Virus record (IMG/VR): IMGVR_UViG_3300020452_000743
Span: 1-22,039 of that record
Reading direction: 5' to 3' (one strand)
DNA length: 22,039 bases
From: a virus
Translations under genes and position numbers: made by a program
The notes under the pieces: model-generated
Told to the model about the DNA's origin: nothing
Seen by the model: the letters and a program-made list of their open reading frames with translations, nothing else
Databases searched by the model: none
Shown here: piece after piece, positions 5,357 to 21,594 of the stretch
How the letters are laid out: each line of letters opens with the position of its first letter
Position numbering within the stretch: the stretch's first letter is position 1

Positions 5357-5399
5357 GTTGGTACACAGGAACCCAACCTCCCATACACTCTTTTTAATC

Positions 5400-6045: not shown

Positions 6046-6277
6046 ATGTAAGATGTGTGGAGTGGAATTAGCAAGTTCTAAGAAACCTCAGTGCTGCGGT
6101 TGTTCCAATCAAATGATTGTGAGTGAGGATAGTGTGAGTGCTAAGGATCTTAGTAGTGTTGTTATGGTTAACCACATTCATGGTGTGGAAGAGACCACAC
6201 TCAGTAAAAAAGAATTAGAGTGGCAAGAAAATAGGAAGAGAAGAAAAATTAAACGATTGGATTTTGAAGTAAGATGA
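6032..6277 (+). CDS. Small zinc-ribbon-like protein (81 aa)
   Basis: 81 residues starting MMLVRCKMCG. Cysteines at 6, 9, 21, 22 and 24 (CKMC then QCCGC) make a likely zinc site of the C-x2-C...C-x2-C or CC-x-C type. The rest is charged, with a basic end (ENRKRRKIKRLDFEVR) that could bind nucleic acid or protein. A GGAGG about 9 nt upstream of 6032 decides the start over the longer in-frame extension beginning at 5993. The ATGA at the end overlaps the next gene. The function is unknown; a DNA-, RNA- or polymerase-binding accessory role is a guess from the zinc site and basic tail. Confidence 0.65.
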   Translation: MMLVRCKMCGVELASSKKPQCCGCSNQMIVSEDSVSAKDLSSVVMVNHIHGVEETTLSKKELEWQENRKRRKIKRLDFEVR

Positions 6278-6876: not shown

Positions 6877-6877
6877 A

Positions 6878-7462: not shown

Positions 7463-7480
7463 CAATCTTGAATGTAGAAT
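7452..7480 (+). promoter_or_regulatory. Sigma70-type promoter, TTGACA-17-TAGAAT
   Basis: TTGACA (7452-7457, 6/6) and TAGAAT (7475-7480, 5/6) are spaced by 17 nt, at the very end of the preceding oxygenase gene. The expected start is near 7487, 15 nt before the ATG at 7502, so it should drive the oxygenase/radical SAM genes. Confidence 0.65.
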
Positions 7481-7501
7481 ATCGTTATATTAGGATATAA
7501 T

Positions 7502-8095
7502 ATGTCAACTATTGAACCGCATGTAGTTTGCGATGATCCAGTGGTTTTTTATCAGGAGATACTTCCACCTGAGTTAGTGGATCTCATGGTAAAAGAACTT
7601 AAGCAGATGGAAGAGGATAGAGTTCCATTTGAGGATGGTGGTGTAGGTGGTGATGCACATGGAAGAAATGATCTTACAGTACGTAACTCCAAAGTTAATT
7701 GGTGGTATGAGAGTCATTGGGCATGTAGTGTTATATCACATTATATAAATCTAGCAAATAAAAAGACGTGGCAATATGATTTAAACACTCTTGAGAGTAT
7801 TCAGATCTCTGTATATCAAGAGGGTGGTCACTATGGATGGCATAGTGATTATGGAACATCCAATAAACAGAACTGGACACGTAAGTTAAGTGCTAGTGTT
7901 TTGGTAACAGATCCTAGTGAGTATGAAGGTGGTGATTTAGTCTTCATAGATTATCATGGTAATGAAATTAATACCCCAAAAGAAAAAGGTACTATTTTAG
8001 TTTTTGATTCTAGAATTCCTCATAAAGTAAAAAAAGTAACTAAGGGTAGAAGAGTGTCTCTTGTAACTTGGATGTACGGTCCTAAGTTGAGGTAG
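7502..8095 (+). CDS. 2OG-Fe(II) oxygenase, prolyl-4-hydroxylase/PKHD-like
   Basis: 197 residues. The catalytic core is QEGGHYGWHSDYG (His114, Asp116), then KLSASVLVTDPSEYEGGDLVF, a hallmark of the P4Hc/PKHD family, and RIPHKVKKVTKGRRVSL (distal His174; Arg184 for 2-oxoglutarate). All Fe(II) ligands are intact, so it should be active. Known members hydroxylate prolyl or other residues in proteins; phage homologues have no settled substrate. The promoter at 7452-7480 and an AGGA upstream of the ATG support this start. It is followed after 2 nt by a second oxygenase of the same broad fold, suggesting co-expression. Confidence 0.9.
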   Translation: MSTIEPHVVCDDPVVFYQEILPPELVDLMVKELKQMEEDRVPFEDGGVGGDAHGRNDLTVRNSKVNWWYESHWACSVISHYINLANKKTWQYDLNTLESIQISVYQEGGHYGWHSDYGTSNKQNWTRKLSASVLVTDPSEYEGGDLVFIDYHGNEINTPKEKGTILVFDSRIPHKVKKVTKGRRVSLVTWMYGPKLR

Positions 8096-8097
8096 TC

Positions 8098-8823
8098 ATG
8101 CCTGAATTTTTTGGTGAGAATCAAGGTTGGCAAGGTGGAAAAAGTACTTGGAAACCCTCAGTTAAATGGCCTCGGTTTACTAAGGAAGGATTTAAGAAAG
8201 TAAAAATTCCTGATGATATCTATGCAGATATCATGGAGCATTATAGTAGGTGTCAGTTTGGAGAAGAGGTAGTAGAAGATAGAGGATTTGATGAGGATTA
8301 TGGTGAGTATGTTGTTGGTGGATCTATAGCAGTTAGGTTTGCAAAAAAACCAGAAGAGGTGTATTATAATAGGTCTACACTACCACATGATCTCATCCAA
8401 AAATGGGCTAAACAATTACAACCATTAATGGAAGAGTGGAGTGGTGTTGAACTTGAGTTCTCTGCTGGATATGGTATAAGGGAATACATCCCAAATTCTA
8501 TTCTATCAATTCATAGAGATAAGGCAGAGACTCATGTTATCAGTATTATAATTTTTATTGATGAGAGTCCTGAAGGAACTAAGTGGCCTTTGGAATTTGT
8601 TGATCATGAAAAAGTTATACATAAGGTAACATTTGAAAAAGGAGATATGCTTTTTTATGAAAGCTTATGTCCTCACTCAAGAAACACACCATTCTTGGGT
8701 AAGTTGTATAGGAACATGTACTTCCATTGGCGACCTGTCGATTGGGATAGTACAGAGTACCTAGGTCAAAAATGTAAATACTCCTGTATGCAGGAAGTTC
8801 TCGATGAGGAGATCGAACAATGA
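8098..8823 (+). CDS. 2OG-Fe(II) oxygenase
   Basis: 241 residues. The motif order is YIPNSILSIHRDKAETH (His139, Asp141), IIIFIDESPEGTKWPLEFV, GDMLFYESLCPHSR (distal His193), and LYRNMYFHWRP with Arg205 for 2-oxoglutarate. These match a P4H-like double-stranded beta-helix. The first ~110 residues are less conserved and probably set the substrate. The GAGG just before the ATG at 8098 gives a good ribosome site inside the end of the previous gene. The final ATGA overlaps the next small gene. The target is unknown: a protein side chain is likeliest by family, and a small molecule is possible. Confidence 0.87.
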   Translation: MPEFFGENQGWQGGKSTWKPSVKWPRFTKEGFKKVKIPDDIYADIMEHYSRCQFGEEVVEDRGFDEDYGEYVVGGSIAVRFAKKPEEVYYNRSTLPHDLIQKWAKQLQPLMEEWSGVELEFSAGYGIREYIPNSILSIHRDKAETHVISIIIFIDESPEGTKWPLEFVDHEKVIHKVTFEKGDMLFYESLCPHSRNTPFLGKLYRNMYFHWRPVDWDSTEYLGQKCKYSCMQEVLDEEIEQ

Positions 8824-9038
8824 ACGCACAAGTACAGACCGAAAAAATTTCTTTGGAGTACTTCAAAGATCATTTCCAAGAAGTATGGAGTCAATGTGGA
8901 CGTGGACGAACTTATCAAGTTGAAGGAGACTTTGAAGTTATTGAACTAAGGAAACTTGGAACACCTGCTTTGAAGGAATTAGTAAAACCAGAATGGCCAC
9001 CTGCTGATCTGGGTTGGCACTCACCTTGCGATATCTAA
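8820..9038 (+). CDS. Hypothetical protein (72 aa)
   Basis: 72 residues beginning MNAQVQTEKISLEYFKDHF. It is soluble and mixed-charge, with a tryptophan-containing C-terminus (PEWPPADLGWHSPC). It is preceded by GAGGAG at good spacing and overlaps the upstream oxygenase by 4 nt, so it is translationally coupled to it. No motif is recognised. It may be a partner or regulator of the oxygenase, but nothing in the sequence shows this. Its 3' end contains the -35 box of the next promoter. Confidence 0.7.
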   Translation: MNAQVQTEKISLEYFKDHFQEVWSQCGRGRTYQVEGDFEVIELRKLGTPALKELVKPEWPPADLGWHSPCDI

Positions 9039-9054
9039 GGGTATCGTTTATAAT
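9026..9054 (+). promoter_or_regulatory. Sigma70-type promoter, TTGCGA-17-TATAAT
   Basis: TTGCGA (9026-9031, 4/6) and a perfect TATAAT (9049-9054) are separated by 17 nt. The expected start is near 9061, 30 nt before the ATG at 9091. It would drive the genes from 9091 to 11443, a group separated by overlaps only. Confidence 0.55.
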
Positions 9055-9090
9055 ATACAGGTACAATGTAAACAACGAGTCATCGAGGAA

Positions 9091-9303
9091 ATGACACTCA
9101 GTTCTAAATTTAAAAAAGATCTAAGCACCCTACGTGCTGCTGCAAACAAGGAAATTTATTTAGACGTAAAAAATCCAAAACTATATAAAAAAGTTATGAG
9201 GTATTATGTAGGTGAAGGTGTAGAGTTATCGGGAGAAGATCCTGATGCAGACTATAATAATATTATGGATTGTATTGCAGAGGATCTTATTGGAGTGGTA
9301 TGA
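9091..9303 (+). CDS. Hypothetical protein (70 aa)
   Basis: 70 residues: a basic first half (KFKKDLSTLRAAANKEIYLDVKNPKLYKKVMRYYVGEGVE) and an acidic second half (EDPDADYNNIMDCIAEDLIGVV). The Y-rich helix and acidic tail look like a small phage accessory protein, but I can name no family. It is the first gene after the promoter at 9026-9054, with a GAGGAA ribosome-site-like stretch before the ATG. Its stop overlaps the next oxygenase start (ATGA). Confidence 0.7.
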   Translation: MTLSSKFKKDLSTLRAAANKEIYLDVKNPKLYKKVMRYYVGEGVELSGEDPDADYNNIMDCIAEDLIGVV

Positions 9304-9905
9304 ATAAAGGCACTGATATACAAACCACATATTTGGATAAGTTTATAGGGATCTGGGATAATGCCTTTGATCCCGATTTTTCCAACTGGGTTATTGATTA
9401 TTGGAAGACTACAAAATATATTGCTAATAGGAATAATCCAGTACAACAAGACAAACAAATCGCACTGAATAGTTTTTCTCCTGGTGAGGCAAATTATATA
9501 CAAGAACGTGTTGATGACTGCTTTGGTATGTACATGGATAAGTATCCATATCTTTCTAATTTTAATTTCTATAGTGGATTAGTCCTACTTCAAAAGACTG
9601 AACCTATGGAAGGGTATCATGCATGGCATAGTGAAGATAGTACATGGGAAGCACAACTTCGTACTCTTGCTTGGACAGTTTACTTTAATGATGTTGAAGA
9701 TAGTGGTGAGACAGAATTTTTATATCAACAAACTAAAATAACTCCTAAGAAAGGTAGGATCGCTATATGGCCAGGTTCATTCACTCATTTGCATAGAGGT
9801 AATCCACCTAACAAAACTAAGTATATTGCTACTGGATGGTACGCTGGAGATGGTGGTATGAATTATTTTAAACCTGGACAAAATGGAAAGGTTCAAGGTA
9901 ATTGA
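9300..9905 (+). CDS. 2OG-Fe(II) oxygenase with H-x-E iron motif
   Basis: 201 residues from the ATG at 9300, coupled to the upstream gene by ATGA with GGAG before it; the longer in-frame start at 9270 is rejected. The oxygenase core reads MEGYHAWHSEDSTWEAQLRT, RTLAWTVYFNDVEDSGETEFLY, and GRIAIWPGSFTHLHRGNPP, then KYIATGW. The first metal motif is H-S-E (His110, Glu112), not H-x-D. The distal His is 163 or 165. Glu for Asp is tolerated in some members, so I expect activity, but it is the least standard of the iron sites in the run. It overlaps the radical SAM gene by 23 nt, the longest overlap in this stretch. The substrate is unknown. Confidence 0.85.
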   Translation: MNKGTDIQTTYLDKFIGIWDNAFDPDFSNWVIDYWKTTKYIANRNNPVQQDKQIALNSFSPGEANYIQERVDDCFGMYMDKYPYLSNFNFYSGLVLLQKTEPMEGYHAWHSEDSTWEAQLRTLAWTVYFNDVEDSGETEFLYQQTKITPKKGRIAIWPGSFTHLHRGNPPNKTKYIATGWYAGDGGMNYFKPGQNGKVQGN

Positions 9906-10695
9906 TGTACCACATTTAGAATGGCATGTAACACATTCTTGCAACTTTACTTGTCAAGGATGTGGACATTTTACTAACGATGGTTATAAAGAAAATTTTA
10001 CAGTAGATGAATTAAAGTCTTGGTATCTCCCTTGGATTGATAAGATCAGACCGAGGGAGTTATCTATGCTTGGTGGTGAACCATTATTGAATAAGGATAT
10101 TATAGAGATCATCTATATGACTAAAGAGATTTGGAGTATAGAATCTGATCAAGTATTTGAATTAGTAACTAATGCTTTATTAATTGATAAGTATCCTGAT
10201 CTTCCCAAGGCATTGTCTGATACTAATTGTATCCTTACAATTACAAAACATTCTGATGATGATAAGTATATAAAATTATTTAATAGATGTATTGATAAAA
10301 TTAAATCTTGGGGTGTAGAATATGTTATACATGATGCAGTTGATTATTGGTTGAAGGCATATGTAGGTTATGGTCCTACGATTGAACCAATAGGAAGTGA
10401 TGACTTCAAAGAGAGTTGGGATAATTGTCCTACAGGACAGGAGAACTTCCAACTATATAAAGATAAAATATATAAGTGTGCTCCTTTAGCATATTTACCT
10501 CTACAAAAAAAGAAGTATGATCTCTCAGATAAATGGGAACCATATCTTAAATACATACCCTTGAGTCCTGATGGAGATATAGAGAAGTTCTTCTCCAGAA
10601 AAGCAGAGACTGTTTGTGCAATGTGTCCCAAAAAATCAGGTCGATTCAAAAAACCATCTCCATTATATTCTCCCAAACATTATGGAATTTTATAG
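9883..10695 (+). CDS. Radical SAM protein with C-terminal cysteine cluster
   Basis: 270 residues. The N-terminal THSCNFTCQGC gives CxxxCxxC (Cys20, 24, 27), the [4Fe-4S] ligand set that cleaves S-adenosylmethionine, and LGGEPLLN (63-70) is the SAM-binding GGE motif. Further cysteines at 182, 199, 245 and 248 (DNCP, YKCAP, CAMC) could hold an auxiliary cluster, like a reduced SPASM region. SPASM-type enzymes modify peptides or carbohydrates by radical chemistry. Here the gene sits between an oxygenase and an oxygenase-related protein, overlapping both. That suggests a joint modification pathway acting on a protein or sugar. Neither the substrate nor a precursor peptide gene is visible. Confidence 0.9.
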   Translation: MERFKVIDVPHLEWHVTHSCNFTCQGCGHFTNDGYKENFTVDELKSWYLPWIDKIRPRELSMLGGEPLLNKDIIEIIYMTKEIWSIESDQVFELVTNALLIDKYPDLPKALSDTNCILTITKHSDDDKYIKLFNRCIDKIKSWGVEYVIHDAVDYWLKAYVGYGPTIEPIGSDDFKESWDNCPTGQENFQLYKDKIYKCAPLAYLPLQKKKYDLSDKWEPYLKYIPLSPDGDIEKFFSRKAETVCAMCPKKSGRFKKPSPLYSPKHYGIL

Positions 10696-11443
10696 TAAAC
10701 GTGATCTATTTTCTGAGGGTATAAGATTAGAACTAATTGATAAATTAGAAAGACATTTTGAAGAGAACTTATATGATGCAGATAATGGTATACTACAAGT
10801 TACACAATGTGTTATTGATTGTCATGGATTAGCATTAAGTCCAAGTTCTTATTTTCCTTATGCTGACAGGTGTTGGAATATATTTGTTTTAAAGGTAAGA
10901 GATTGTATTCATGAGTATGCTGAACAGGTCGGTATAAATCCTAGTTCTATGATACCGTTCTCATGTTATGCTGAACGATTAAGTTATTCTATGTTTGATG
11001 GTTTAGATCCTCTAACTTGGAAGCATACTATATGGAGGAGAATGTATGAGTCTGGAGATTCATATGATCTTAAAGATTGGAGAGTTGATAAAAAATCTAG
11101 TATGATTACAGGATATAAAACTAGAGGTGATACTAATGTTCTTACTGACAAACAAGTTAAGTACCCTTTTATAAGAACAGTATTCTATTTACAAAATAAA
11201 GATCAAGCATATGGAACTCATATTGAAACTGAAGAGGGGTCACACAGACATCTTGGTGAAGAAAATTCTATATTAATATATCCAAACCTTCCTTCTTATA
11301 ATGTATTGCCTCATAATCCAGAGTACGTAGAGAGTTCTCCACCAATTAATATTATATTTGAATGGTATATTTGGGATCTTCTTCCTAAGGGTGCTAAAGG
11401 TTTTGGGCAAAAACTTAGATCGCCTGACTGGGTGCTGCCGTAG
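10682..11443 (+). CDS. Oxygenase-family-related protein lacking metal ligands
   Basis: 253 residues from the ATG at 10682, overlapping the radical SAM stop by 14 nt; an in-frame extension from 10616 lies within that gene. The C-terminal half is clearly related to the two minus-strand oxygenases downstream: IRTVFYLQNKDQAYGT and GEENSILIY correspond to their [14 protein letters not shown] and GEENSIIIF. At the place of the H-x-D motif it has no His-x-Asp, and PSYNV replaces the LNHSA/LFHSA block with the distal histidine. It is probably catalytically inactive, or binds no iron, and could be a scaffold or substrate-binding partner. The N-terminal half is unrecognised. The gene meets its minus-strand neighbour head-on with a 29-nt overlap of 3' ends. 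Confidence 0.65.
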   Translation: MEFYSKRDLFSEGIRLELIDKLERHFEENLYDADNGILQVTQCVIDCHGLALSPSSYFPYADRCWNIFVLKVRDCIHEYAEQVGINPSSMIPFSCYAERLSYSMFDGLDPLTWKHTIWRRMYESGDSYDLKDWRVDKKSSMITGYKTRGDTNVLTDKQVKYPFIRTVFYLQNKDQAYGTHIETEEGSHRHLGEENSILIYPNLPSYNVLPHNPEYVESSPPINIIFEWYIWDLLPKGAKGFGQKLRSPDWVLP

Positions 11444-12095
11444 GATCAAACTCGCAACTATTATAATTTGTTGATGGAGTAAATGTTCTCTCCATAGATG
11501 TATCGACAACAACTGTATACCTTGGATATTTTTCTACAACATCTAGTGGTGGATATATTGCACTGTGATTTAATCTAGCATCATATATGAGAGCAGTATT
11601 CTCTACACCTTGATGCATATAGATTTGCTTATCACTTACCTTAACCATTGTTCCATATTTTGGATCTGGATTTTTTAAATAGATGATTACTCCTATAGGA
11701 TTGTTATCATGGTTATGAAGATTTCTATATGGAGTAAAGGTATCTACTTTATTCTTTGCAAGGGGATCATCTTCTGGTAGACCATTATATCTTGTGACCC
11801 ATGATGAATGAAATCTTACATTCTTATAATTTAAATCTGCTAACTTACAATATTGAACTATACCTAATCTAACTCTTTCTAATAAAGTATCCCATACATA
11901 TTGATCTTTTATCTCATTTAAAATATTTGAAGTTGCCTCTGGAGGGAACACTTCAATAGTAGGATCTTTTTTAATTTTTGTAATTAGTTCATCACAACTC
12001 TCCAGTAGTCCTCCCATGACTTCTTCTGGAAGAAAGTTTTGTATGTTTAAAAAATAATTCCCATTAAATTTTTTTACTTGTGCTTTACTTGCCAT
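11415..12095 (-). CDS. 2OG-Fe(II) oxygenase-like protein (minus strand)
   Basis: 226 residues on the minus strand, third gene of a minus-strand operon. The fold follows its upstream paralogue: IEVFPPEA near residue 50, then IGVIIYLKNPDPKYGT, YMHQGVENTALIYDARLNHSAIYPP (distal His177) and YPRYTVVVD (Arg192). The first iron site reads LHNHDNN (127-130), so His and Asp are present but not in the exact H-x-D spacing of the paralogue's AHLDCD. Activity is therefore uncertain. The start at 12095 overlaps the small gene before it by 11 nt. The C-terminus extends about 25 residues beyond the paralogue's core (TFTPSTNYNSCEFDP). Confidence 0.75.
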   Translation of the reverse strand: MASKAQVKKFNGNYFLNIQNFLPEEVMGGLLESCDELITKIKKDPTIEVFPPEATSNILNEIKDQYVWDTLLERVRLGIVQYCKLADLNYKNVRFHSSWVTRYNGLPEDDPLAKNKVDTFTPYRNLHNHDNNPIGVIIYLKNPDPKYGTMVKVSDKQIYMHQGVENTALIYDARLNHSAIYPPLDVVEKYPRYTVVVDTSMERTFTPSTNYNSCEFDPTAAPSQAI

Positions 12096-12339
12096 CTTGT
12101 TGTTGCAATTTTTCTACGACAGTTTGTGATTGCATTTTTGGTACATCCATCAAACCATTAGCATCAAACCAAGGTGCTTCTTCCCAGTCAAATCCTTCAC
12201 CTGTAAAGTCTGGACTAATTATATACCAATGACAAGCAGAGTCAGGAACATCAACTGCACATATTGCCCAGTTGTCTGCCCATTGAGGTACTTGTACCCA
12301 CATGACTGCTGCTGCAAATATACTAATTAAAAATGTCAT
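12085..12339 (-). CDS. Small exported or membrane-anchored hypothetical protein (84 aa)
   Basis: 84 residues, minus strand. The N-terminus [17 protein letters not shown] is a hydrophobic stretch suitable as a signal peptide or membrane anchor. The rest is acidic and tryptophan-rich (WADNW, CHWYIIS, FDWEEAPWFDA) with two cysteines, Cys27 and Cys36, that could form a disulfide outside the cytoplasm. It sits between the two oxygenase genes with a 4-nt ATGA overlap before and 11 nt after, so it is co-translated with them. I recognise no family. Its setting suggests a periplasmic or membrane partner, but that is a guess. Confidence 0.7.
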   Translation of the reverse strand: MTFLISIFAAAVMWVQVPQWADNWAICAVDVPDSACHWYIISPDFTGEGFDWEEAPWFDANGLMDVPKMQSQTVVEKLQQQDGK

Positions 12340-13004
12340 GTTGTTGGTTTACTCCTTTTAAATGTTTCGTCTTTCATACTATATCTAAATTTATAGTCTG
12401 CTACGATAGTGTATCTAGGATACTTTTTTGTTATTGCCATAGGAGGATAAACTGCACTATGGAATAATCGACCATCAAATATAATTATTGAATTCTCTTC
12501 ACCAATGTTTAAAATATTTTGTCCACCTGCTTTTTTTATTAATGTACCATATTTTTTATCTGGATTCTTTAGATAGAATACACTAGTTATTGGATCACAG
12601 TCAAGATGTGCATGCATGTTGCCTTCAGTAGAATGTCTTCTTAGTCTATCTATTAAATCCACTTCCATTTTATGAGAGAAGTCTAAATCTTTAACTCTAG
12701 TAATCCAAGACGCATGGCGACTTAGATAATCCATAGGTATATCTATTAACTTACTATATTCTTTTACTATAAGATCGAGAGTATTATAATACTTTCTCCA
12801 TATAGGATCGTTTTTAAATTCATCATACTCAAAAAGTTTTCCTGATGCTTCGGGTGGGAAGACTTCTTCTGTAGTATCCTTCCTAGTTTTTTCTAACCAA
12901 TAAACAGAAGACTTATATAACTTTTTTAAAAAAGTTTTAGGGAATACATCAATAACTTTATAGAAGTGATATCCGTCAATTTCAATACTCTTTACTTTAC
13001 TCAC
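12336..13004 (-). CDS. 2OG-Fe(II) oxygenase (minus strand)
   Basis: 222 residues, first gene of the minus-strand operon, starting at GTG (13004). The triad is complete: HAHLDCDP (His133, Asp135), then [35 protein letters not shown] (distal His182), and [10 protein letters not shown] (Arg197) for 2-oxoglutarate. It is a clear paralogue of the gene at 11415-12095 and is related to the degenerate plus-strand gene at 10682-11443, so the family has expanded locally. Both minus-strand members carry EVFPPEA near residue 50, a subfamily mark. A late-promoter-like CATAAATA lies just upstream. The substrate is unknown. Confidence 0.82.
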
Positions 13005-13041: not shown

Positions 13042-13063
13042 TAGAACATATAATGCCCATACT

Positions 13064-14065
13064 ATGAAGACAGCTTTAATAACTGGAATCACGGGTCAGG
13101 ATGGATCTTACCTTGCGGAGTTACTTCTAGAGAAGGGATATGATGTTCATGGTATTGTTCGTCGTTCTTCGATGATTAATACAGATAGGATAGATCATAT
13201 CTTTGACAAGATTACTCTTCACTTCGGTGACATGACTGACTCTGGTAATATCATTCACGTAATACAGAAAGTTAAACCAGACGAAATTTATAATCTCGCA
13301 GCACAGAGTCATGTCAAAGTATCTTTTGAGATGCCTGAGTATACAGGTCTAGTTGATGCTATGGGAACTCTGAGAGTTCTTGAAGCAGTAAGAATTCTTG
13401 AGTTGCAAGATAAGTGCAAAGTTTATCAGGCATCAACTTCAGAGTTATATGGATTGGTTCAAGAGACTCCACAAACTGAGGAGACTCCATTCTATCCACG
13501 TTCACCTTATGGTGTAGCAAAGTTATATGGATATTGGATCATCAAGAATTATAGAGAGTCATATGGAATGTATGCTTGCTCTGGTATCCTGTTTAATCAT
13601 GAGTCTCCACGTAGAGGTGAGACCTTTGTAACTCGTAAGATTACTCGTGGTCTATCTAAAATCTCATGTGGTTTACAGAAGGAGATTGTCTTAGGTAATA
13701 TCAATGCAAGACGTGACTGGGGTCATGCTAAGGATTATGTTGAAGCAATGTGGTTGATGTTACAACAAGATCAACCTAAAGATTATGTTATTGCTACAGG
13801 ACTGTCTTATAGTGTTAAAGATTTTGCTGAGAAAGCAGCAGTATATTTTGGAATTACTCTTAGGTGGGAAGGAGAAGGATTAGATGAGGTTGGTATAGAC
13901 AGGTCTAGTGGGAAAACCATCATCAGATGCAGTGATAAATATTATCGACCTGCTGAAGTTGAGACTTTATTAGGTGATGCTCGTAAAGCAAGAGAGGATC
14001 TAGGTTGGGAACCTAAGATATCTTTTGATGAATTAATTGAGGATATGTGTATCTATGGACAGTAG
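13064..14065 (+). CDS. gmd: GDP-mannose 4,6-dehydratase
   Basis: 333 residues. It converts GDP-D-mannose to GDP-4-keto-6-deoxy-D-mannose, the first step to GDP-L-fucose and related sugars, in the cytosol. The N-terminal Rossmann motif is TGITGQDG (7-14) for NADP. The catalytic region has STSELYG (Ser124, Thr125, Glu127) and [10 protein letters not shown] with Tyr149 and Lys153 (YxxxK). [16 protein letters not shown] is the classic GMD substrate block. The start at 13064 is chosen over an in-frame TTG at 13013 because family members begin at MKTALITG and the promoter lies between. It heads the ten-gene operon and overlaps fcl by 11 nt. Identification is secure. Confidence 0.96.
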
Positions 14066-14990
14066 TTCTAAAGTATTCGTTGCAGGACACAACGGTCTAG
14101 TTGGTTCTGCCATTGTTAGAAATCTAGAGTCAAAAAATTACAATAACATTTTCTGGGTACGAAGAAAGAATTGTGACCTGACAGATAGAAATCAGGTTGA
14201 CCATTACTTCGATCAATCAAAACCAGAGTATGTTTTTCTTGCTGCCGCAAAGGTCGGTGGTATTATAGGTAATAAAAAATTCCCTGCAGAATTCATCTAT
14301 GACAATCTGATGATTCAGACAAATGTCATAGACGCTGCTTATCGTCACGGTGTTAAAAAACTTGTATTCTTAGGATCATCTTGTATCTATCCTAAGATGG
14401 CAAAGCAACCAATAACAGAGGATCAGTTGATGACTGGTACTTTGGAACCAACTAATGATGCTTATGCTATTGCTAAGATAGCAGGTATCAGGATGTGTCG
14501 TGCTTATCGTGAGCAATATGGATTCAATGCTATAGCATTACAACCAACAAACTTGTATGGTGAGAATGATAACTTCCACCCAGAACATGGTCATGTAATT
14601 CCAGGTATCATGCGTAGAATGTATGATGCAAAACAGAATGGTGATGCTGAGTTTGCTTGTTGGGGTGATGGATCTGCTATGAGAGAATTCCTTTACATTG
14701 ATGATCTTGCTGAGGCATGTTATACTTGCATGGATAAGTATGACTCCGATGAGATTATTAATGTTGGTAGTGGCGTTGATGTTACTATCAAAGAACTCAC
14801 AGGTCACATTGCTGATGTAGTTGGTTACACTGGCAAGATTGTTTGGGACACTAGTAAACCTAATGGTACACCTAGGAAGGTTCTCAACGTGGATAAGATC
14901 AAGTCTCTTGGATGGGAACCAACCTTAGGTCTCAAAGAAGGACTACATAAAACTTTTGAATGGTATAAAGAAAATCATGATAGGCTTTAA
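14055..14990 (+). CDS. fcl: GDP-L-fucose synthase
   Basis: 311 residues, also known as WcaG. It performs epimerisation and NADPH reduction of the Gmd product to GDP-L-fucose. Visible motifs: AGHNGLVG (GxxGxxG, Gly11/14/17), [16 protein letters not shown] with Ser108 and Cys110, and YAIAK with Tyr137 and Lys141 (E. coli Ser107/Cys109/Tyr136/Lys140 equivalents). [21 protein letters not shown] is a typical GMER substrate-binding block. The chosen start (14055) overlaps gmd by 11 nt; an upstream TTG at 14037 is in frame but adds residues that do not fit the family. The order gmd-fcl then fucosyltransferase is the normal fucose module. Confidence 0.96.
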
Positions 14991-15771
14991 TAGGTTAGGA
15001 TTACTAGGAAGACTTGGTAATCAGATGTTCCAGTATGCTTCATTGAAAGGCATTGCTGCTAACAATGGTTATAACTGGATGATTCCACCACCACCAGAAG
15101 GCAACTTTAAGGAGTGGCAAGATCATCAATTGTTTTATCCATTTGAATTAAAGAATCTTCACAACCTTAATGTTCAACATACTGATGGTGAAAGACCTAC
15201 AGTAAAAGAAAAATCATTTGCTTTTGATGAAGACCTTTTTAATAATTGCCCTAAGTGGGTAAACATAGAAGGTTATCTTCAAAGTGAGAAGTACTTTAAA
15301 AATATTGAGAAAGAGATTAAGGAAGACTTTGCTTTTAAAGAAGAGTTTGCCAAACCATCTAGAGATATGATTGCTACTGTAGAAGAACCAGTTGCACTTC
15401 ATATTCGTAGGACTGACTATTTACAATTAGATCATCACAATAGTCTTGGATTAGATTATTATGAGAAGGCACTTGGAGAATTTGATAGTGATCGCACTGT
15501 TATTATTTTCTCTGATGATGCAGAGTGGTGTAAAGAACAAAAGTTATTTGATGGTGATAGATTTTTAGTTGCAGAAGGTAATGTTAACTATGTTGACTTA
15601 TGCCTTATGACATTATGTACTGGACATATTATTGCTAACTCTTCATTCTCTTGGTGGGGAGCATGGTTATCTAATAGTAAGAAAGTTATAGCACCTAAGA
15701 ATTGGTTTAGTGGTCATCTTGAAAAGCAAGATACCACAGATCTTTATTGTCCTGAATGGGAGGTAGTATAA
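14977..15771 (+). CDS. GT11 alpha-1,2-fucosyltransferase
   Basis: 264 residues from the ATG at 14977 (MIGFNRLG); an in-frame start at 14956 is less like the family. GRLGNQMFQYA (11-21) is the GT11 N-terminal hallmark. HIRRTDYL (142-149) is motif I, the HxRRxD GDP-fucose site, with Arg144/Arg145 expected to bind the nucleotide. FSDDAEWCK and NSSFSWWGAWL (221-231) are motifs II and III. GT11 enzymes transfer fucose from GDP-fucose in alpha-1,2 linkage to galactose or similar acceptors, making H-type structures. It overlaps fcl by 14 nt, so donor synthesis and transfer are made together. The exact linkage is inferred from the family. Confidence 0.92.
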   Translation: MIGFNRLGLLGRLGNQMFQYASLKGIAANNGYNWMIPPPPEGNFKEWQDHQLFYPFELKNLHNLNVQHTDGERPTVKEKSFAFDEDLFNNCPKWVNIEGYLQSEKYFKNIEKEIKEDFAFKEEFAKPSRDMIATVEEPVALHIRRTDYLQLDHHNSLGLDYYEKALGEFDSDRTVIIFSDDAEWCKEQKLFDGDRFLVAEGNVNYVDLCLMTLCTGHIIANSSFSWWGAWLSNSKKVIAPKNWFSGHLEKQDTTDLYCPEWEVV

Positions 15772-16490
15772 TGAAAGTTGCTGTTGTTTTTATAGGTACT
15801 GATAAGTATCTTGACTTCTTACCTAAGTGGTATGAGAGTTGTGAAGAGTATCTTCTTCCAGATGTTGAGAAGAAGTATTTGGTATTTACTAACGGTGAGA
15901 TACCAGAACCACCAAAGAATGTTGTTGTATATAAACAAGAACATTTAGAGTGGCCTTACATTACTTTGTATAGATTCAAAATGATTATACAATCATTTGA
16001 TGATATTAAAGATTGTGATTATTTACTCTTCTTAGATGCAGATATGCGTGTAGTTGATACGGTAACTACAGAAGATCTTATTGATGAGACTAAGAAGTAT
16101 ATTGGTGTTCATCATCCATGTCATTATCTTGGAATGGAACCTCATAATAAAGCACCTGGTGCATTTGAAGTTCGTCCAGTATCCCGTGCTGCTGTATCAG
16201 AAGATGAGTTAATGGATGTATATTATCAGGGATGTCTTTGGGGTGGTAAACTTCCACAGGTTCTTGATATGGTTAAGGAACTTGATAGTAGAACAGATGA
16301 GGATCATGATAAAGACATCATTGCTCAGTGGCATGATGAGAGTCATTTGAATAAATTTTATATTGAGCATAGAGATGAGGTTCATACCGTATCTCCTAGT
16401 TGTGCCTATCCAGAAGTATTTGCATCTGCATGTACCTTCGATCCAAAGATTGTCCATCTAGCAAAAGACAATAGTAAGTACCATGTTTAA
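15771..16490 (+). CDS. GT6 family glycosyltransferase (ABO/alpha-1,3-GalT-like)
   Basis: 239 residues; the ATG at 15771 is set by GGAGGT nine bases upstream and overlaps the GT11 stop by 1 nt. GT6 marks: EWPYITLYRFKMI (60-72), LFLDADMRV with DxD at Asp89/Asp91 for a Mn2+-bound UDP-sugar, HHPCHYL, an ABO-like RP-x-S-x-A stretch, YYQGCLWGG and WHDESHLNKF (187-196), the family's diagnostic block. Vertebrate GT6 enzymes add galactose or GalNAc alpha-1,3, and the ABO members need an alpha-1,2-fucosylated acceptor. The gene directly after GT11 fits that order. It keeps DxD, whereas many bacterial GT6 proteins have NxN. From memory, a GT6 gene has been reported in cyanophage P-SSM2. Confidence 0.88.
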   Translation: MKVAVVFIGTDKYLDFLPKWYESCEEYLLPDVEKKYLVFTNGEIPEPPKNVVVYKQEHLEWPYITLYRFKMIIQSFDDIKDCDYLLFLDADMRVVDTVTTEDLIDETKKYIGVHHPCHYLGMEPHNKAPGAFEVRPVSRAAVSEDELMDVYYQGCLWGGKLPQVLDMVKELDSRTDEDHDKDIIAQWHDESHLNKFYIEHRDEVHTVSPSCAYPEVFASACTFDPKIVHLAKDNSKYHV

Positions 16491-17187
16491 GATTGCACTA
16501 TTATATTCTGGACAACCCAGACATTTAAAAGAAGCGTTCCCAAATCACCACGATACATTTTGGAAACCAAATAATTCATATCAGATAGATGTGTTTGCAC
16601 ACATGTGGTATGACGAGAAGTGGATTGGTAATTACTTCTGGGATCAGTATAAAGATCGTGGAAGATGGGAAGCAGATCTTAAAGAGTTTATGCAAGACAA
16701 CTGGAATCCAAAAGCAATTAAGTTTGAGGAACCAAAAGAATTTGAACCAGAGGATATTGTACCTGATTCTAGATTCCCTCATCCAGTTAATAATATTATC
16801 TCACAGTTCTATAGTATCTCTCAGGCAAATGACCTGAAGAAAAAATATGAAGATGAGAATAATTTTAAGTATGATGTTGTAGTTCGTTTAAGAACTGACG
16901 AATACTTCCAAAGACCTATTGGTCCTATCAATGAATACAATCTTGATAGTATTAATGTCTTAAAAGAATGGGCACATGTTGAGCATGGAATCAACGATCA
17001 CTTTGCATTTGGGTCGTCTGAATTGATGGATAAATATCTGGACGTATATGAGAACTTCGTAGAGATTGCGGAGATGGGAGCAGAAATTAATCCAGAATGT
17101 ATCATTGGATTTAATGCTCAGATCAGACACAAATTACCCGTCACAAAGAATGATTGGAAGTATGTATTATGGAGGGATAAAAAATGA
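16483..17187 (+). CDS. Putative glycosyltransferase of the 'GQPR' type, copy 1
   Basis: 234 residues. The start MFKIALLYSGQPRHL, the DVFAHMWYDE block (near 36-44) and YDVVVRLRTDEYF resemble the second copy at 18557 (FFGQPR, DVFGHMWW, YDFIVLARYDT). The alternating strand pattern and the RTDE/RYDT position look like a GT-A nucleotide-diphospho-sugar fold with an acidic motif after the strand, but I cannot name a CAZy family. By context it would add a sugar to the surface glycan. It overlaps GT6 by 8 nt. C-terminal homology to its paralogue fades, so donor or acceptor specificity should differ. Function is inferred from position and general fold pattern. Confidence 0.6.
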   Translation: MFKIALLYSGQPRHLKEAFPNHHDTFWKPNNSYQIDVFAHMWYDEKWIGNYFWDQYKDRGRWEADLKEFMQDNWNPKAIKFEEPKEFEPEDIVPDSRFPHPVNNIISQFYSISQANDLKKKYEDENNFKYDVVVRLRTDEYFQRPIGPINEYNLDSINVLKEWAHVEHGINDHFAFGSSELMDKYLDVYENFVEIAEMGAEINPECIIGFNAQIRHKLPVTKNDWKYVLWRDKK

Positions 17188-18557
17188 CCAAACTTGTTAT
17201 TTTTGATTTAGACGGTGTATTAATTGATAGTAAAGATTATCATTATGATGCACTGAATGAAGCACTCGGAGAAGAGTATGCTATCAGTAGAGAAGAACAT
17301 GTTAGTACCTATGATGGTCTTCCTACTACAGCGAAGTTAGAATTACTGAGTAAGAATAAAGGTCTTCCTGCAGATAGATATGATGATATCTGGAGAGCAA
17401 AGCAAGAGAATACACTTCACATCTTTAAGACAAAAGTTGATAAGGATTATGAGTTGATGGGATACTTCCAACAACTTGTAGATGAAGGGTATAAGATTGC
17501 TGTTGCTTCTAATAGTATTCGTAATACTGTAAAAATTATTCTACTACGTCTAGGACTTCTAGAGTTCATTGACATCTATGTGTCTAATGAGGATGTGGTT
17601 AGAAATAAACCATTCCCATCTATGTACTGGAAGTGCATGATGGCTCTAGGTGCTTTACCTGATGATACGGTTATCCTTGAGGATAGTCATATTGGTAGGC
17701 AGGGTGCTTTAGATAGTAAGTGTCATTTGGTTCCTATTGAAAATAGGAGTGATTTGAATCAGGCAAAGGTTGATAGGATTAAAAGAATCCTTCAAAGTGA
17801 AAAACAAAAAGTCGCATGGGAGAGCAAAACTATGAACGTATTAATTCCTATGGCAGGACGTGGAAGTCGTTTTGCTACTCAAGGATATACATTCCCTAAA
17901 CCTCTTATTGATGTTAAGGGTAAACCAATGATTCAGGTGGTTACAGAGAACCTGAATATCAAAGCAAACTATACCTTTATTGTTCAGAAGGAACACTACG
18001 AGAAGTATAGTCTTCAACATCTATTAAATCTTATTGCACCCAATTGTAATATTGTTCAGGTAGATGGTATTACAGAAGGTGCTGCATGTACCACATTACT
18101 TGCTAAGGAGTTCATTGATAATGATGAACCACTCTTGATGGCAAACTCAGATCAGTTTGTTGAGTGGGATTCAAATGAAACTCTCTATGCATTCTCTAAT
18201 GGTGATTGTGATGGAGGTATCATTACCTTCCCTGCTACTCATCCTAAGTGGAGTTATGCAAAACTAGGTGATGATGGATATGTATCTGAAGTTGCTGAGA
18301 AGAAACCAATCTCTGAGCATGCAACAGTTGGTATCTATTGGTGGGCAAAAGGATCTGACTATGTTAAGTATGCAGAGCAGATGATTGAAAAAGATATTCG
18401 TGTTAATAACGAATATTATGTTTGCCCTGTCTTCAATGAAGCAATTGGAGATGGTAAGAATATACGTATTAAAGAGATAGAGAAGGAAGGTATGTGGGGT
18501 ATAGGTACTCCTGAAGATCTTAATTATTTCCTAGAACACTACAACGGAGAGTTCTGA
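17184..18557 (+). CDS. HAD phosphatase-sugar nucleotidyltransferase fusion
   Basis: 457 residues in two domains. Residues 1-205 are a beta-phosphoglucomutase-like HAD: FDLDGVLIDS (Asp8, Asp10), VASNS (Ser109), NKPFP (Lys142) and LEDSHIG (Asp167). Residues 217-457 are a nucleotidyltransferase: MNVLIPMAGRGSRF (signature Gly225-Arg226-Gly227), TFPKPLIDVKGKPM (Lys239), ANSDQF (Asp323, metal) and EKEGMWGIGTPEDL. Internal Met217 starts the second domain exactly. Such enzymes make NDP-sugars from sugar-1-phosphates, with the HAD half probably dephosphorylating a precursor, as in bacterial heptose pathways. The sugar is unknown; GDP-mannose formation is possible but not shown. GGAGG lies before the ATG and it overlaps copy 1 by 4 nt. 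Confidence 0.85.
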   Translation: MTKLVIFDLDGVLIDSKDYHYDALNEALGEEYAISREEHVSTYDGLPTTAKLELLSKNKGLPADRYDDIWRAKQENTLHIFKTKVDKDYELMGYFQQLVDEGYKIAVASNSIRNTVKIILLRLGLLEFIDIYVSNEDVVRNKPFPSMYWKCMMALGALPDDTVILEDSHIGRQGALDSKCHLVPIENRSDLNQAKVDRIKRILQSEKQKVAWESKTMNVLIPMAGRGSRFATQGYTFPKPLIDVKGKPMIQVVTENLNIKANYTFIVQKEHYEKYSLQHLLNLIAPNCNIVQVDGITEGAACTTLLAKEFIDNDEPLLMANSDQFVEWDSNETLYAFSNGDCDGGIITFPATHPKWSYAKLGDDGYVSEVAEKKPISEHATVGIYWWAKGSDYVKYAEQMIEKDIRVNNEYYVCPVFNEAIGDGKNIRIKEIEKEGMWGIGTPEDLNYFLEHYNGEF

Positions 18558-19282
18558 TGAAAGTTGCAGTAGCATTTTTTGGTCAACCACGATACGTGGG
18601 TAACCCACAGATTATTAATACTTACAAGGAAGTCTTACTAGACAAGTATGACTGTGATGTATTTGGTCATATGTGGTGGCAAGAAGATGGTGGAGAGTTT
18701 GATTATTCTTCATGGTCTAAAATTAGCAATTGTCCAGTTCCACCAGATGCTCCAAAGATTGTTACTGACAATTATAATCCTCTTATACTTGCTATAGAAG
18801 ATCCTCAAACATTTGAACTTCCACCCAATGCTAAGAAGTATGTTGATGAGAAGTTTACGGATAAACATCCTGATGGTCCTCATTGGAATGATAAGAACTA
18901 TAGTAATGTAATGTCACAGTTGAAGTCTATTCAACATGTATCTAATATTGTAAGACAATATTCTATTGAGAATAATATCAGTTATGATTTTATAGTTCTA
19001 GCAAGATATGATACTGTCATGATGAGGTTCCCAAATCTAGAACAACTTGATAAGTATAAGTTCTATCTACCTGGACATCATCCAAGGTTCCCTGATACTA
19101 TTCAGTTCTTTGGACCTAAGTTCTTGACATGGGCAGAGACTGCCTTTGATGAGGTTGATAATGTATATGAGGGTATATGGGAACCATCTCCAGAAGCATT
19201 TAAGTATGGTGCATTTTTAAGAAGGTTTAGTTCATCTGACCTTGTTGGATTGTCAATGGATGCTGCCTGTATAAGAGGTTAA
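18557..19282 (+). CDS. Putative glycosyltransferase of the 'GQPR' type, copy 2
   Basis: 241 residues, starting MKVAVAFFGQPRYV. The paralogue at 16483 shares GQPR, the DVFGHMWW block, the SQLKSIQHVSNIV helix (like SQFYSISQANDLK) and YDFIVLARYDTV after a predicted strand. A C-terminal segment GPKFLTWAETAFDEVDNVYEG is similar to GSSELMDKYLDVYENFVEI in copy 1. The pair probably arose by duplication and now flank the HAD-nucleotidyltransferase gene. The likely role is sugar transfer to a surface glycan; the donor is unknown. The start overlaps the fusion gene by 1 nt (TGATG) with GGAGAG upstream. Confidence 0.6.
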   Translation: MKVAVAFFGQPRYVGNPQIINTYKEVLLDKYDCDVFGHMWWQEDGGEFDYSSWSKISNCPVPPDAPKIVTDNYNPLILAIEDPQTFELPPNAKKYVDEKFTDKHPDGPHWNDKNYSNVMSQLKSIQHVSNIVRQYSIENNISYDFIVLARYDTVMMRFPNLEQLDKYKFYLPGHHPRFPDTIQFFGPKFLTWAETAFDEVDNVYEGIWEPSPEAFKYGAFLRRFSSSDLVGLSMDAACIRG

Positions 19283-19283
19283 T

Positions 19284-19853
19284 ATGGTTGTAGATTCTCT
19301 TATCAATCCTAGTAACAAAAGATTACTGTCTAGAATAATTGCACATAGAGGTAATATTGGGGGATCAAATCCTGAAGTTGAGAATAGCCCAGAGCAGATT
19401 GACAAATGTATATCTGAGGGTTATGATGTAGAGATAGATTTGAGGTATGATGACTTAACTAAAACTCTTTGGTTAGGTCATGATTCACCAGATTATAAGG
19501 TAACTTGGTATTGGTTAGCACAGAGGATTAGATACCTTTGGGTTCATTGTAAAACTTACAATACTCTCTGCGAATTATCTGATCAAACATTACCTAAAGA
19601 AAGAGGATATGATGTAGACACTGGTGGATGTAATTACTTCTGGCATCAGGAGGATCATTATACTTTAACCAGTAACAATATCATTTGGGCATATCCTGGA
19701 AAACCTTATTCTGATCTTAAAATGCTTAAGGACAACCCAAATTTATCTAACACCGTAATAGTAATGCCAGAATGGAATAAGATGGATTGGGAATCACTAC
19801 AAGTTTTACGTTGTTATGGCATTTGCACTGATCACCCTGAAAAATTAAAATGA
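19284..19853 (+). CDS. Glycerophosphodiester phosphodiesterase-like protein (GDPD superfamily)
   Basis: 189 residues. The GDPD pattern is visible: IAHRGNIGG (His21, Arg22), VENSPEQI (Glu34-Asn35-Ser36), DVEIDLR (Glu50, Asp52) and LGHDSP (His66, Asp67). The remainder follows a TIM-barrel-like order of strands (YLWVHCK, IIWAYPG, NTVIVMPEW, YGICTDHPE). It is shorter than typical GDPD enzymes (about 240-300). Typical members cleave glycerophosphodiesters; in capsule clusters, relatives may act on phosphodiester-linked polymers. It has no signal peptide, so it acts inside the cell. Its presence among transferases suggests processing of a phosphodiester-containing glycan or its precursor. Gene spacing is 1 nt. 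Confidence 0.78.
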   Translation: MVVDSLINPSNKRLLSRIIAHRGNIGGSNPEVENSPEQIDKCISEGYDVEIDLRYDDLTKTLWLGHDSPDYKVTWYWLAQRIRYLWVHCKTYNTLCELSDQTLPKERGYDVDTGGCNYFWHQEDHYTLTSNNIIWAYPGKPYSDLKMLKDNPNLSNTVIVMPEWNKMDWESLQVLRCYGICTDHPEKLK

Positions 19854-20800
19854 AAATTACTTTAGTCGGACCTGGCATTATGCCTATACCACCTACAGGG
19901 TGGGGTGCTGTTGAGATATTAGTATGGGATACTAAAAATGCACTAGAAGATTTGGGACATGAAGTTCAAATCCTTAACACAAAAGACTATCGTCATATAA
20001 TTAACGGGATCAATTCATTTGTTCCTGATTTTGTGCATGTTCATTATGATGAGTTTATTGATATTATTCCATTCATACAATATCCAAATGCTATTACTAG
20101 TCATTTTGGATACTTAGAAAGACCAAAGATGTTTGGTGGTTATATTAATGTAGCAAATCAGTTTAGAGATGTTAAACCAAATGTATTCTGTTTGTCACCA
20201 GGAATTGAGACTGTATATAATTTGATGTTTGATATACCAAAGGAGAATACTTATGTAACTCCTAATGGTGTGAATACAAATAACTTTGAATTTGATAGTG
20301 AAGCAAAGTATCCTGATCGTAGCATCTATCTAGCAAAGATTGATTATCGTAAGAGACAACATCTATTCCAGAACATTGATTCTCTATGGTATGCTGGTAA
20401 TCTTGCTGATAATAATTTTGATAGGAATAAGAATTACCTTGGTGAATGGAGCAAGGAGAAGTTGTATAAGGAGTTAACTAACTATGGTAACCTTTGCCTC
20501 TTATCAGATGGTGAAGCACATCCACTGGTCTGTATGGAAGCGTTCTGTGCTGGACTAGGTGTAGTTGTATGTGAGTGGGGTAAGGCAAACTTAGATCTTG
20601 ATAAAAAATTTATTACTGTCATCCCTGAGAATAAGATTAATGATATTGAATTTGTTGAGAGTGAGATAGTTAAGAACAGAGAATATTCTATTGCACATAG
20701 AGATGAGATCCTTGAATATTCTAAAACTTTTGAGTGGAAGAACGTGCTAGAAAAAAATTACATTCCTGCAATCAAAAAGGTTATTGAAAGATGGTCCTAG
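19850..20800 (+). CDS. GT-B glycosyltransferase (GT4-like)
   Basis: 316 residues. The N-terminus MKITLVGPGIMPIPPTGWGAVE resembles the glycine-rich donor-side start of many GT4 enzymes. C-terminal features are the LAKIDYRKRQHLF segment and GEAHPLVCMEAFCAGLGVVV, which contains an EX7E motif (Glu, then Glu eight residues on), the retaining GT-B nucleotide-sugar site. The usual region between the two Rossmann lobes is shortened relative to a typical 370-residue GT4, so the acceptor lobe may be reduced. ATGA overlap couples it to the GDPD-like gene. Donor and acceptor are unknown. Confidence 0.8.
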   Translation: MKITLVGPGIMPIPPTGWGAVEILVWDTKNALEDLGHEVQILNTKDYRHIINGINSFVPDFVHVHYDEFIDIIPFIQYPNAITSHFGYLERPKMFGGYINVANQFRDVKPNVFCLSPGIETVYNLMFDIPKENTYVTPNGVNTNNFEFDSEAKYPDRSIYLAKIDYRKRQHLFQNIDSLWYAGNLADNNFDRNKNYLGEWSKEKLYKELTNYGNLCLLSDGEAHPLVCMEAFCAGLGVVVCEWGKANLDLDKKFITVIPENKINDIEFVESEIVKNREYSIAHRDEILEYSKTFEWKNVLEKNYIPAIKKVIERWS

Positions 20801-21594
20801 ACACTAACAAATCAGCATATAAACTAGATGGATTCGGTCCAGTCTATTGTCTTAATCTCGATGAACAACCAGAGAGATGGCAATACATGGAGTCTCAGTT
20901 TAAGTACTGGCAGATAACTGATTATCAACGTGTCTCTGCTTATGATGGGCGTGATGATGACCTTAGTGATATTATTAAGGGTCGTTATCCTGATATGATG
21001 TCTGGTGGGGAGATAGGATGTATTACATCACACCTCAAAGCAATCAAACACTTCTATGAGGAGACTGATAAACCATATGCAATCATGATGGAAGATGATT
21101 GTAATTTAGATACCGTACAATTTTGGAATTTTAATTGGAATGATTTTGTAGCACATCTTCCATATGATTATGATGTGGTACAACTAGCAATCATATGTAC
21201 TGGAGATATACATGTTAAGTTACATAGGAGATTTGTCAATGACTTCTCTACTGCTTGTTATATGATTACAAGACATCATGCTGCTAAGTTGCTTAAGTAT
21301 CATGTGAAGGGAGTTGATAAGTATCGTTTAGATAATGGTGTTAAACCAAGACCAGTTGCAGATGATTTGATTTATAATTCTGGTGCAACATTCTCTACAC
21401 CTATCCTACTCTATAGATTAGAGTTAGGATCTTCTATACATCCAGAGCATATAGATTCATTCCATAGAGCAAGTCATGATGGTATATTGAACTGGTGGCA
21501 GCAACAGGGAGCAACTCTTGACGTTAAGACTTTAACTGATTATGATCCATACCTAGGTAAAGTAAGTGATCCTGGTGGTAATCCAGGCGGTTAA
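20791..21594 (+). CDS. GT25-family glycosyltransferase
   Basis: 267 residues. PVYCLNLDEQPERWQYMESQF, VSAYDGRDDD, GEIGCITSHLKAIKHFYE and IMMEDDCNL are in the order of the GT25 (LPS galactosyltransferase/procollagen galactosyltransferase-like) domain; the EDD carries the metal-binding acid. FSTACYMITRHHAAKLL and PVADDLIYN are the downstream GT25 blocks. GT25 enzymes usually transfer galactose or glucose to lipopolysaccharide or hydroxylysine. The last gene of the glycan operon, it ends in a glycine/proline tail and is followed by no clear terminator. It overlaps the previous gene by 10 nt. Its exact sugar is unknown. Confidence 0.85.
   Translation: MVLDTNKSAYKLDGFGPVYCLNLDEQPERWQYMESQFKYWQITDYQRVSAYDGRDDDLSDIIKGRYPDMMSGGEIGCITSHLKAIKHFYEETDKPYAIMMEDDCNLDTVQFWNFNWNDFVAHLPYDYDVVQLAIICTGDIHVKLHRRFVNDFSTACYMITRHHAAKLLKYHVKGVDKYRLDNGVKPRPVADDLIYNSGATFSTPILLYRLELGSSIHPEHIDSFHRASHDGILNWWQQQGATLDVKTLTDYDPYLGKVSDPGGNPGG

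Follow-up and report, generated by a model that had tools for sequence, protein, structure and literature searches.

Four overlapping genes at the front of a cyanophage glycan cassette

The stretch of viral DNA analyzed here, which spans 22,039 nucleotides (positions 1 to 22,039 of IMG/VR record IMGVR_UViG_3300020452_000743; hereafter "the window"), is a fragment of a T4-like cyanophage and includes a glycan cassette of ten same-strand genes, the first four of which lie head to tail at positions 13064-16490 with overlaps of 11, 14, and 1 bases. These encode a GDP-D-mannose 4,6-dehydratase, the enzyme of the first step to GDP-L-fucose (gmd, 13064..14065, plus strand, ATG at 13064; PF16363, 6e-150), a GDP-L-fucose synthase (fcl, 14055..14990, plus strand; PF01370, 1.5e-64), an alpha-1,2-fucosyltransferase-like protein of family GT11 with an HxRRxD motif (14977..15771, plus strand; PF01531, 1.7e-26; phrog_2644, 6.6e-111), and an ABO-type glycosyltransferase of family GT6 with a DAD metal motif and the sequence WHDESHLNK (15771..16490, plus strand; PF03414, 8e-26; phrog_3317, 2.1e-109). 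The gene identities, order, overlaps, coordinates, and motifs previously proposed in a sequence-only reading of this DNA were all confirmed. The cassette belongs to a cluster type already known from cyanophages, and its new aspect is the either-or supply of two L-sugars to a fixed GT11-GT6 core. Overall, we consider it probable that the four genes open a glycan cassette in which this core makes a blood-group-like branched cap from a swappable L-sugar supply.

Most of the family assignments were well above the corresponding thresholds. Gmd scored 542.3 bits against the TIGR01472 equivalog profile (cut-off 415) and was 74-76% identical to the Gmd of P-SSM2, ACG-2014f, DSL-LC02, and DSL-LC03, and GT11 and GT6 scored 93.6 bits against PF01531 (cut-off 23.9) and 91 bits against PF03414 (cut-off 25), respectively. 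Fcl reached 468.3 bits against the GDP-L-fucose synthase profile NF047922 (cut-off 500), with the next family at 104 bits, and GT6 reached 186 bits against NF041524, below the cut-off of 250. For profile searches and alignments, Gmd was taken to begin at 13061 and Fcl at 14058, i.e. one codon before and one codon after the start, respectively, which did not affect the matches. The GT6 ATG (15771) shares the letters TAATG with the GT11 stop codon and is preceded by GGGAGG, a pattern as in translationally coupled genes.

The GT11-GT6 pair and its catalytic sites

To place the window among its relatives, we compared 122 loci, comprising the window itself, IMG/VR relatives, and sampled phage records, which grouped into 58 clusters at 95% GT6 identity. 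Samples consisted of the best 80 of at least 541 viral relatives, 80 of at least 578 stretches encoding a GDP-mannose 3,5-epimerase (GME), the best 80 of 206 loci with a GT6 of the P-SSM2 type, and 80 of 179 bacterial genome loci, with close relatives over-represented. Trees, residue counts, and cassette distances were obtained from 48 representatives, which include two P-SSM2-type rows (L030 and L039) and are exclusive of L002-L026 (among them the non-repeats L019-L026) and of L037, L040, L041, L102, L117, L120, and L122; GT11 residue and cassette-distance counts further exclude L035, in which GT11 is broken by the record end.

A tblastn search detected GT6 genes in 71 phage records, of which 64 carry a Synechococcus or Prochlorococcus name and many represent a single species, ACG-2014f; GT11 genes were detected in 101. 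The presence of GT6 in two cyanophages was already published in 2014 (PMC3961637), and the GT6 of P-SSM2 is annotated as such in its record. GT11 was found in the locus of 55 of the 58 GT6 clusters, the exceptions being a metagenomic phage of 634 kb and two fragments from the gut. It was also present in 39 of 43 clusters from the P-SSM2-type scan, though often several kb away from GT6, and a GT11 match was obtained for 62 of the 80 bacterial GT6 loci. For comparison, 31 of 74 GME-bearing viral loci lacking GT6 included a GT11 (flanks of 8 vs 10 kb, some loci incomplete). Within the cassettes, GT11 and GT6 reading frames were at most 100 nucleotides apart in 34 of 44 labelled cases. Conversely, S-SM2, S-T4, and S-SCSM1 are in the list of GT11 matches and not in the GT6 lists, which omit a few of the 71 records. 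GT11 hence accompanies GT6 more often than it occurs in the GME comparison set, while some phages with GT11 are absent from the GT6 lists, an asymmetry that would follow from GT6 acting on the GT11 product. These sequence comparisons support GT11-GT6 as a conserved pair in phages and bacteria. Our literature search, which covered passages of openly licensed papers (cited here by PMC number), returned no description of this pair in phages or of a donor swap.

For GT11, residues H142, R144, R145, and D147 of the HxRRxD motif were invariant in 30 of 30 rows. No relative with a solved structure was identified by sequence at E-values up to 0.01; for the predicted structure (predicted local distance difference test score, pLDDT, 92.4), the nearest solved folds were the GDP-fucose users POFUT1, FUT8, and NodZ, with a template modelling (TM) score of about 0.5. 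Family membership, the gmd-fcl context, and this predicted fold together suggest an alpha-1,2 linkage and the use of GDP-L-fucose.

For GT6, the best sequence relative with a solved structure was BoGT6a (2e-22), ahead of the human ABO enzymes (4e-17), and the predicted structure (pLDDT 89.9) was likewise nearest to BoGT6a (4ayj; TM 0.87-0.89 in the first rows), followed by human GTA and GTB. The window enzyme combines this predicted GT-A fold with the catalytic residues of the family (DAD, W187, E190, and K232). The DxD motif was kept in all 133 phage GT6 rows compared, i.e. the 48 representatives, 80 P-SSM2-type loci (not dereplicated), and five window-type loci from the GME scan, with the two gut fragments outside of this comparison; the WHDE glutamate and the C-terminal lysine were conserved as well. 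Phage GT6 proteins also represent a large collection of non-animal ABO homologues of the DxD type. DxD has been tied to metal dependence in the GT6 family (PMC3961637), and the 65 of 80 bacterial GT6 rows that displayed NxN are presumably metal-independent.

The donor pocket of the window enzyme differs from those of the human ABO enzymes. At the positions of GTA residues 266 and 268, for which passages of PMC4202792 give L/G in the human A enzyme and M/A in the B enzyme, the window GT6 carries Q153 and C155, and thus fits neither the A nor the B type. This Q/C pair was found in 46 of the 48 representatives and five further window-type loci, and an A/G pair characterizes the P-SSM2-type GT6 (two representatives and 80 of 80 loci). 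BoGT6a, a GalNAc enzyme (PMC3961637), aligned to the window GT6 with A and G at the same pair. In addition, the position aligned to GTA Thr245 was Ala or Ser in 47 of the 48 representative rows. Residue numbers for GTA and GME were assigned by manual reading of the alignments. As judged from these alignments, cyanophages have at least two GT6 donor pockets, that of the window being neither A- nor B-type, and the Q/C pair and the change at the Thr245 position suggest an acceptor and a donor that may be unlike those of the ABO enzymes. The sequence-only reading had proposed an A/B-antigen-like product: its blood-group-like part is sustained by the pairing of GT11 with GT6 in all three sets of loci, and "blood-group-like in layout" seems a fair description, but, with this donor pocket and a change at a position aligned to an acceptor-site residue, an A- or B-antigen identity goes beyond the evidence.

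These differences, including Ala131 of the window enzyme, would also fit an ordinary capsule or O-antigen cluster, subject to frequent shuffling, whose neighbouring GT11 and GT6 act on different residues and form no blood-group-like branch. So would the other genes, including methyltransferases, which stand between GT11 and GT6 in P-SSM2 and ACG-2014f, and the several kb that often separate the two in the P-SSM2-type set. We nevertheless regard this explanation as quite unlikely, given that the pairing persists with phage GT6 proteins only about 31% identical and across the bacterial loci, that the two frames touch or nearly so in most labelled cassettes, and that BoGT6a uses 2'-fucosyl acceptors (PMC3961637).

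Alternative L-sugar supply genes

The sequence-only reading had included gmd and fcl in the module, but a fixed place for them there is not supported: roughly one in two of the close cassettes sampled encodes a GME instead, and the complete genome of B23 has neither gmd/fcl nor any substitute. Upstream sequence of 4 kb or more was available for 49 clusters, of which 20 included gmd and fcl, 21 GME, none both, and eight neither (Fisher's exact test, 1.3e-7, uncorrected for kinship). One of these eight reflects the extent of the flank, since L022, from the L021 cluster counted as "neither", has a gmd farther off in its record; similarly, a gmd was found across the record origin in DSL-LC03, which had been counted as short. 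Of L019-L026, seven of eight had no supply gene in their flanks. A similar division was observed for 14 whole phage records (four of which are metagenomic or single-cell pieces), with six encoding a gmd more than 70% identical and no GME, six a GME and no gmd of more than 70% identity, and two neither.

The gene that precedes GT11 in Bellamy, S-CAM9, S-PRM1, S-8S53, and SynMITS9220M01 is annotated as an epimerase, and we identified it as GME. The S-CAM9 and Bellamy proteins matched Arabidopsis GME at 6e-81 and 2e-82, against 6e-23 and 7e-19 or weaker for other kinds of enzymes, and the other three were 67-97% identical to the S-CAM9 protein. Residues aligned to the catalytic C145, Y174, K178, and K217 of Arabidopsis GME did not vary among the 15 phage GMEs aligned. 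The possibility raised by the name given in its record, that the S-CAM9 epimerase is a UDP-glucose 4-epimerase feeding GT6, was ruled out by these best matches to GME. We also discarded a Gmd-like gene of Bellamy (35% identity) as a maker of GDP-fucose, because the best NCBIfam matches of its neighbours were HddA and HddC (below cut-offs), which makes a GDP-heptose route likelier. The region of Bellamy genes 215-219 (L363:552-4350) encodes a kinase and a nucleotidyltransferase nearest to HddA and HddC (below cut-offs) with a Gmd-like dehydratase alongside, and probably represents a phage route to a GDP-(deoxy)heptose.

The product of GME is GDP-L-galactose, which is the 6-hydroxy analogue of GDP-L-fucose, L-fucose being 6-deoxy-L-galactose. 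Given that both routes start at GDP-mannose and end in a near-identical donor, the simplest interpretation is that a single transferase has had its donor swapped. The alternative is that GME feeds another transferase of the cassette and not GT11, the supply routes being lineage markers only. We consider this alternative rather unlikely, because GME sits in the place of fcl, at most 150 nucleotides from the GT11 frame in 20 of 24 GME cassettes, and was never found together with gmd and fcl in the 49 clusters, and because the switch took place several times. On quick trees with some long branches, supply type changed at least four times on the GT11 tree and six times on the GT6 tree, and well-supported branches alone force two and six changes, respectively, for the GME label. 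Two cassettes are mosaic in this respect. L056 (GME) shares 93% GT6 identity but 67% GT11 identity with L055 (gmd and fcl), its long similarity to L055 starts inside GT11, and its GME is 91% like that of L109. L082 (gmd and fcl) shares 91% of Gmd and 80% of GT11 with L044 but only 64% of GT6, which is instead 79% like that of L104 (GME). These mosaics suggest that the supply genes travelled with at least the front part of GT11 and separately from GT6, and L056 and L082 are the only two clear recombination events left in these sequence comparisons. Consistent with such a link, GT11 followed supply type beyond GT6 similarity in a label shuffle (0/2000).

Several observations nonetheless limit this reading. 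In the same shuffle, GT25, the intended control, gave 0/2000 with a larger difference than GT11, GT4 gave 18/2000, and the HAD-nucleotidyltransferase was weak (216 or 28 of 2000, depending on the range). Since GT25 and GT4 also follow the supply label, and GT25 even better than GT11, lineage accounts for part of the GT11 signal. Of 79 GME loci, some of them incomplete, 43 had no GT11 (the 80th, L083, has GT11 and GT6 and was counted elsewhere), and outside of GT6 cassettes a gmd was present in 11 of these 79. S-SCSM1 carries both routes (PMC9602691), and the eight of 49 clusters mentioned above have no supply gene in the flank. Finally, the P-SSM2-type set comprised 21 clusters with gmd and fcl, four with GME, none with both, five partial, and 13 with neither, and exclusivity was not significant there (p=0.10, clusters with 8 kb upstream). 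More generally, viral contigs commonly encode GME, with at least 578 stretches confirmed, and its vicinity often has no GT11 or GT6. None of the 80 bacterial GT6 loci included a GME, and 13 included gmd and fcl; none of these 80 carries a cyanobacterial name in its record title.

Residues of GT11 separating the two supply types were also sought, and no firm signature was obtained. The best candidate in the catalytic motif was the residue before the D of HxRRxD, which is T in 17 of 20 gmd and fcl rows and G in 22 of 24 GME rows. G at this position also occurs in ordinary fucosyltransferases, however, and it was dropped as a donor signature for this reason.

Neighbouring genes, proposed product, and known systems

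The cassette extends past position 16490 to 21594 with six further plus-strand genes. Two paralogues of phrog_13607 (16483..17187, 1.3e-42, with DUF7796 at 8.8e-7; and 18557..19282, 1.2e-48) flank a fusion of a HAD phosphatase and a sugar nucleotidyltransferase (17184..18557; PF13419, 2e-24; PF00483, 1.5e-9), which was 75-97% identical in compared cassette pairs, even across differing supply genes. They are followed by a weakly assigned glycerophosphodiester-phosphodiesterase-like gene (19284..19853; phrog_34507, a phrog of unknown function), a GT4-like glycosyltransferase (19850..20800; phrog_33732, 3.5e-178; PF13439, 2.5e-4, below cut-off), and, as the last gene, a GT25 glycosyltransferase (20791..21594; PF01755, 9.3e-13; phrog_2835, 1.8e-120). 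In the corresponding row of DSL-LC03, the gene two before the GT4-like gene is annotated as a glycerophosphoryl diester phosphodiesterase. Ribonucleotide-reductase genes, read from open reading frames (ORFs), occupy the left end of the window and likewise of its relative L069; in Bellamy, S-CAM9, and S-PRM1, such genes also precede the same cassette.

Directly upstream of the cassette lies a dense block of oxygenase-like genes with a radical SAM gene (5355-13004). It includes a JmjC/cupin match (ORF 5355-5900), an Asp/Asn-hydroxylase match (6824-7462), two 2OG-Fe(II) oxygenase matches (7502-8095 and ORF 9270-9905), the radical SAM protein among them (9883-10695; PF04055, 5.5e-10), and four proteins without a Pfam match (8098-8823; 10616-11443, plus strand; 11415-12095 and 12336-13004, minus strand). 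The two minus-strand ORFs are clearly paralogous to each other (3e-41 to 8e-41), and each also matches ORF 10616-11443 on the plus strand at about 1e-6 or better. At least three of the nine genes of this block were found beside eight of 19 other gmd and fcl representatives with 7 kb upstream, and the block was absent (fewer than three genes) beside 11 of these 19, P-SSM2 included, and beside 16 of 16 GME representatives. Radical SAM relatives also adjoin the gmd and fcl cassettes L044, L047, L050, and L082, which lack most of the block. The block thus belongs to the closest relatives rather than to the GT11-GT6 system as such, but it leaves room for a conceivable link to protein hydroxylation.

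As their families suggest, the enzymes of the cassette front would act in sequence. Gmd and Fcl would turn host GDP-D-mannose into GDP-L-fucose, GT11 would add this L-sugar, probably by an alpha-1,2 linkage, to a galactose-like glycan residue, and GT6, metal-dependent by its DxD, would add a second sugar in a retaining linkage on the same residue. The product would be a branched two-sugar cap laid out like the blood-group A or B determinant, and in sister phages with GME instead of Gmd and Fcl, the GT11-GT6 core would probably be fed GDP-L-galactose. Profile searches with Pfam and PHROG recognized no flippase, polymerase, transporter, or ligase among the ten cassette genes, which favours a cap or side branch added to a glycan that the host already has over a new polymer. 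At a guess, the carrier would most likely be the host outer polysaccharide, and the benefit a surface changed against rival phages or grazers. Superinfection blocking and altered adsorption, which the sequence-only reading had suggested, have been conjectured for cyanophage glycan clusters (PMC7824862, PMC9602691), and the blocking of rival phages for such clusters in both cyanophages and pelagiphages (PMC7824862, PMC7029224).

The lack of a recognizable transporter, polymerase, or ligase would also suit a cassette that glycosylates phage proteins, such as virion or tail fibre proteins, perhaps on residues hydroxylated by the adjacent oxygenases, as would the retention of the oxygenase and radical SAM block beside some gmd and fcl representatives. 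This seems improbable, as the block is missing beside every GME and most gmd and fcl representatives and is hence no constant part of the system, and since GT25, GT4, and sugar-nucleotide genes are, by general knowledge, typical of polysaccharide clusters. We tentatively suggest, as a possibility short of even, that a GT11-GT6 core using interchangeable GDP-L-fucose and GDP-L-galactose lets cyanophages alternate between blood-group-like caps and an L-galactose analogue, and that, together with a GT6 pocket (Q/C or A/G) that varies the other branch, it constitutes a combinatorial serotype-conversion kit. Cyanophage genome papers regularly list surface-glycan genes, with the product unnamed in the literature searched. 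Concrete structures, namely an L-fucose or L-galactose cap plus the GT6 sugar, are predicted by a fixed core of two transferases supplied through two mutually exclusive donor routes.

Among known systems, the human ABO pathway (FUT1 or FUT2, then GTA or GTB) resembles the phage cassette in combining GT11 and GT6 families, plausibly in the same order. GTA and GTB share the DxD and catalytic WHDE with the window GT6 and are its nearest folds after BoGT6a, but are 23-25% identical to it and differ in the donor pair (L/G or M/A vs Q/C). Unlike in the human pathway, the window GT6 (239 residues) shows no membrane anchor and the donor supply is encoded alongside. In bacteria, BoGT6a of Bacteroides ovatus, the best sequence and fold match, is a characterized GT6 which takes 2'-fucosyl acceptors (PMC3961637), and WbwK and WbnI of E. 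coli O86 are an example of a GT11 and GT6 combination (PMC4202792). The 80 bacterial GT6 loci resemble the phage ones in mostly having GT11 alongside (62 of 80), and differ in being mostly NxN with no GME found. Among cyanophages, the cell-wall gene set of S-SCSM1, as described in passages of PMC9602691, includes gmd, fcl, and an alpha-1,2-fucosyltransferase like the window, but also GME and thus both routes, and this phage is not among the listed GT6 matches (few of the 71 being unlisted). The cluster of P-SSM2 differs from the window in its GT6, which is 31.5% identical with an A/G instead of a Q/C donor pocket, and in the GT4-like (weak match) and methyltransferase genes that separate GT11 and GT6. 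It otherwise presents gmd, a nucleotide-sugar epimerase (fcl), GT11, GT6, and GT25 in the same order as the window, and stands before high-light and psbA genes.

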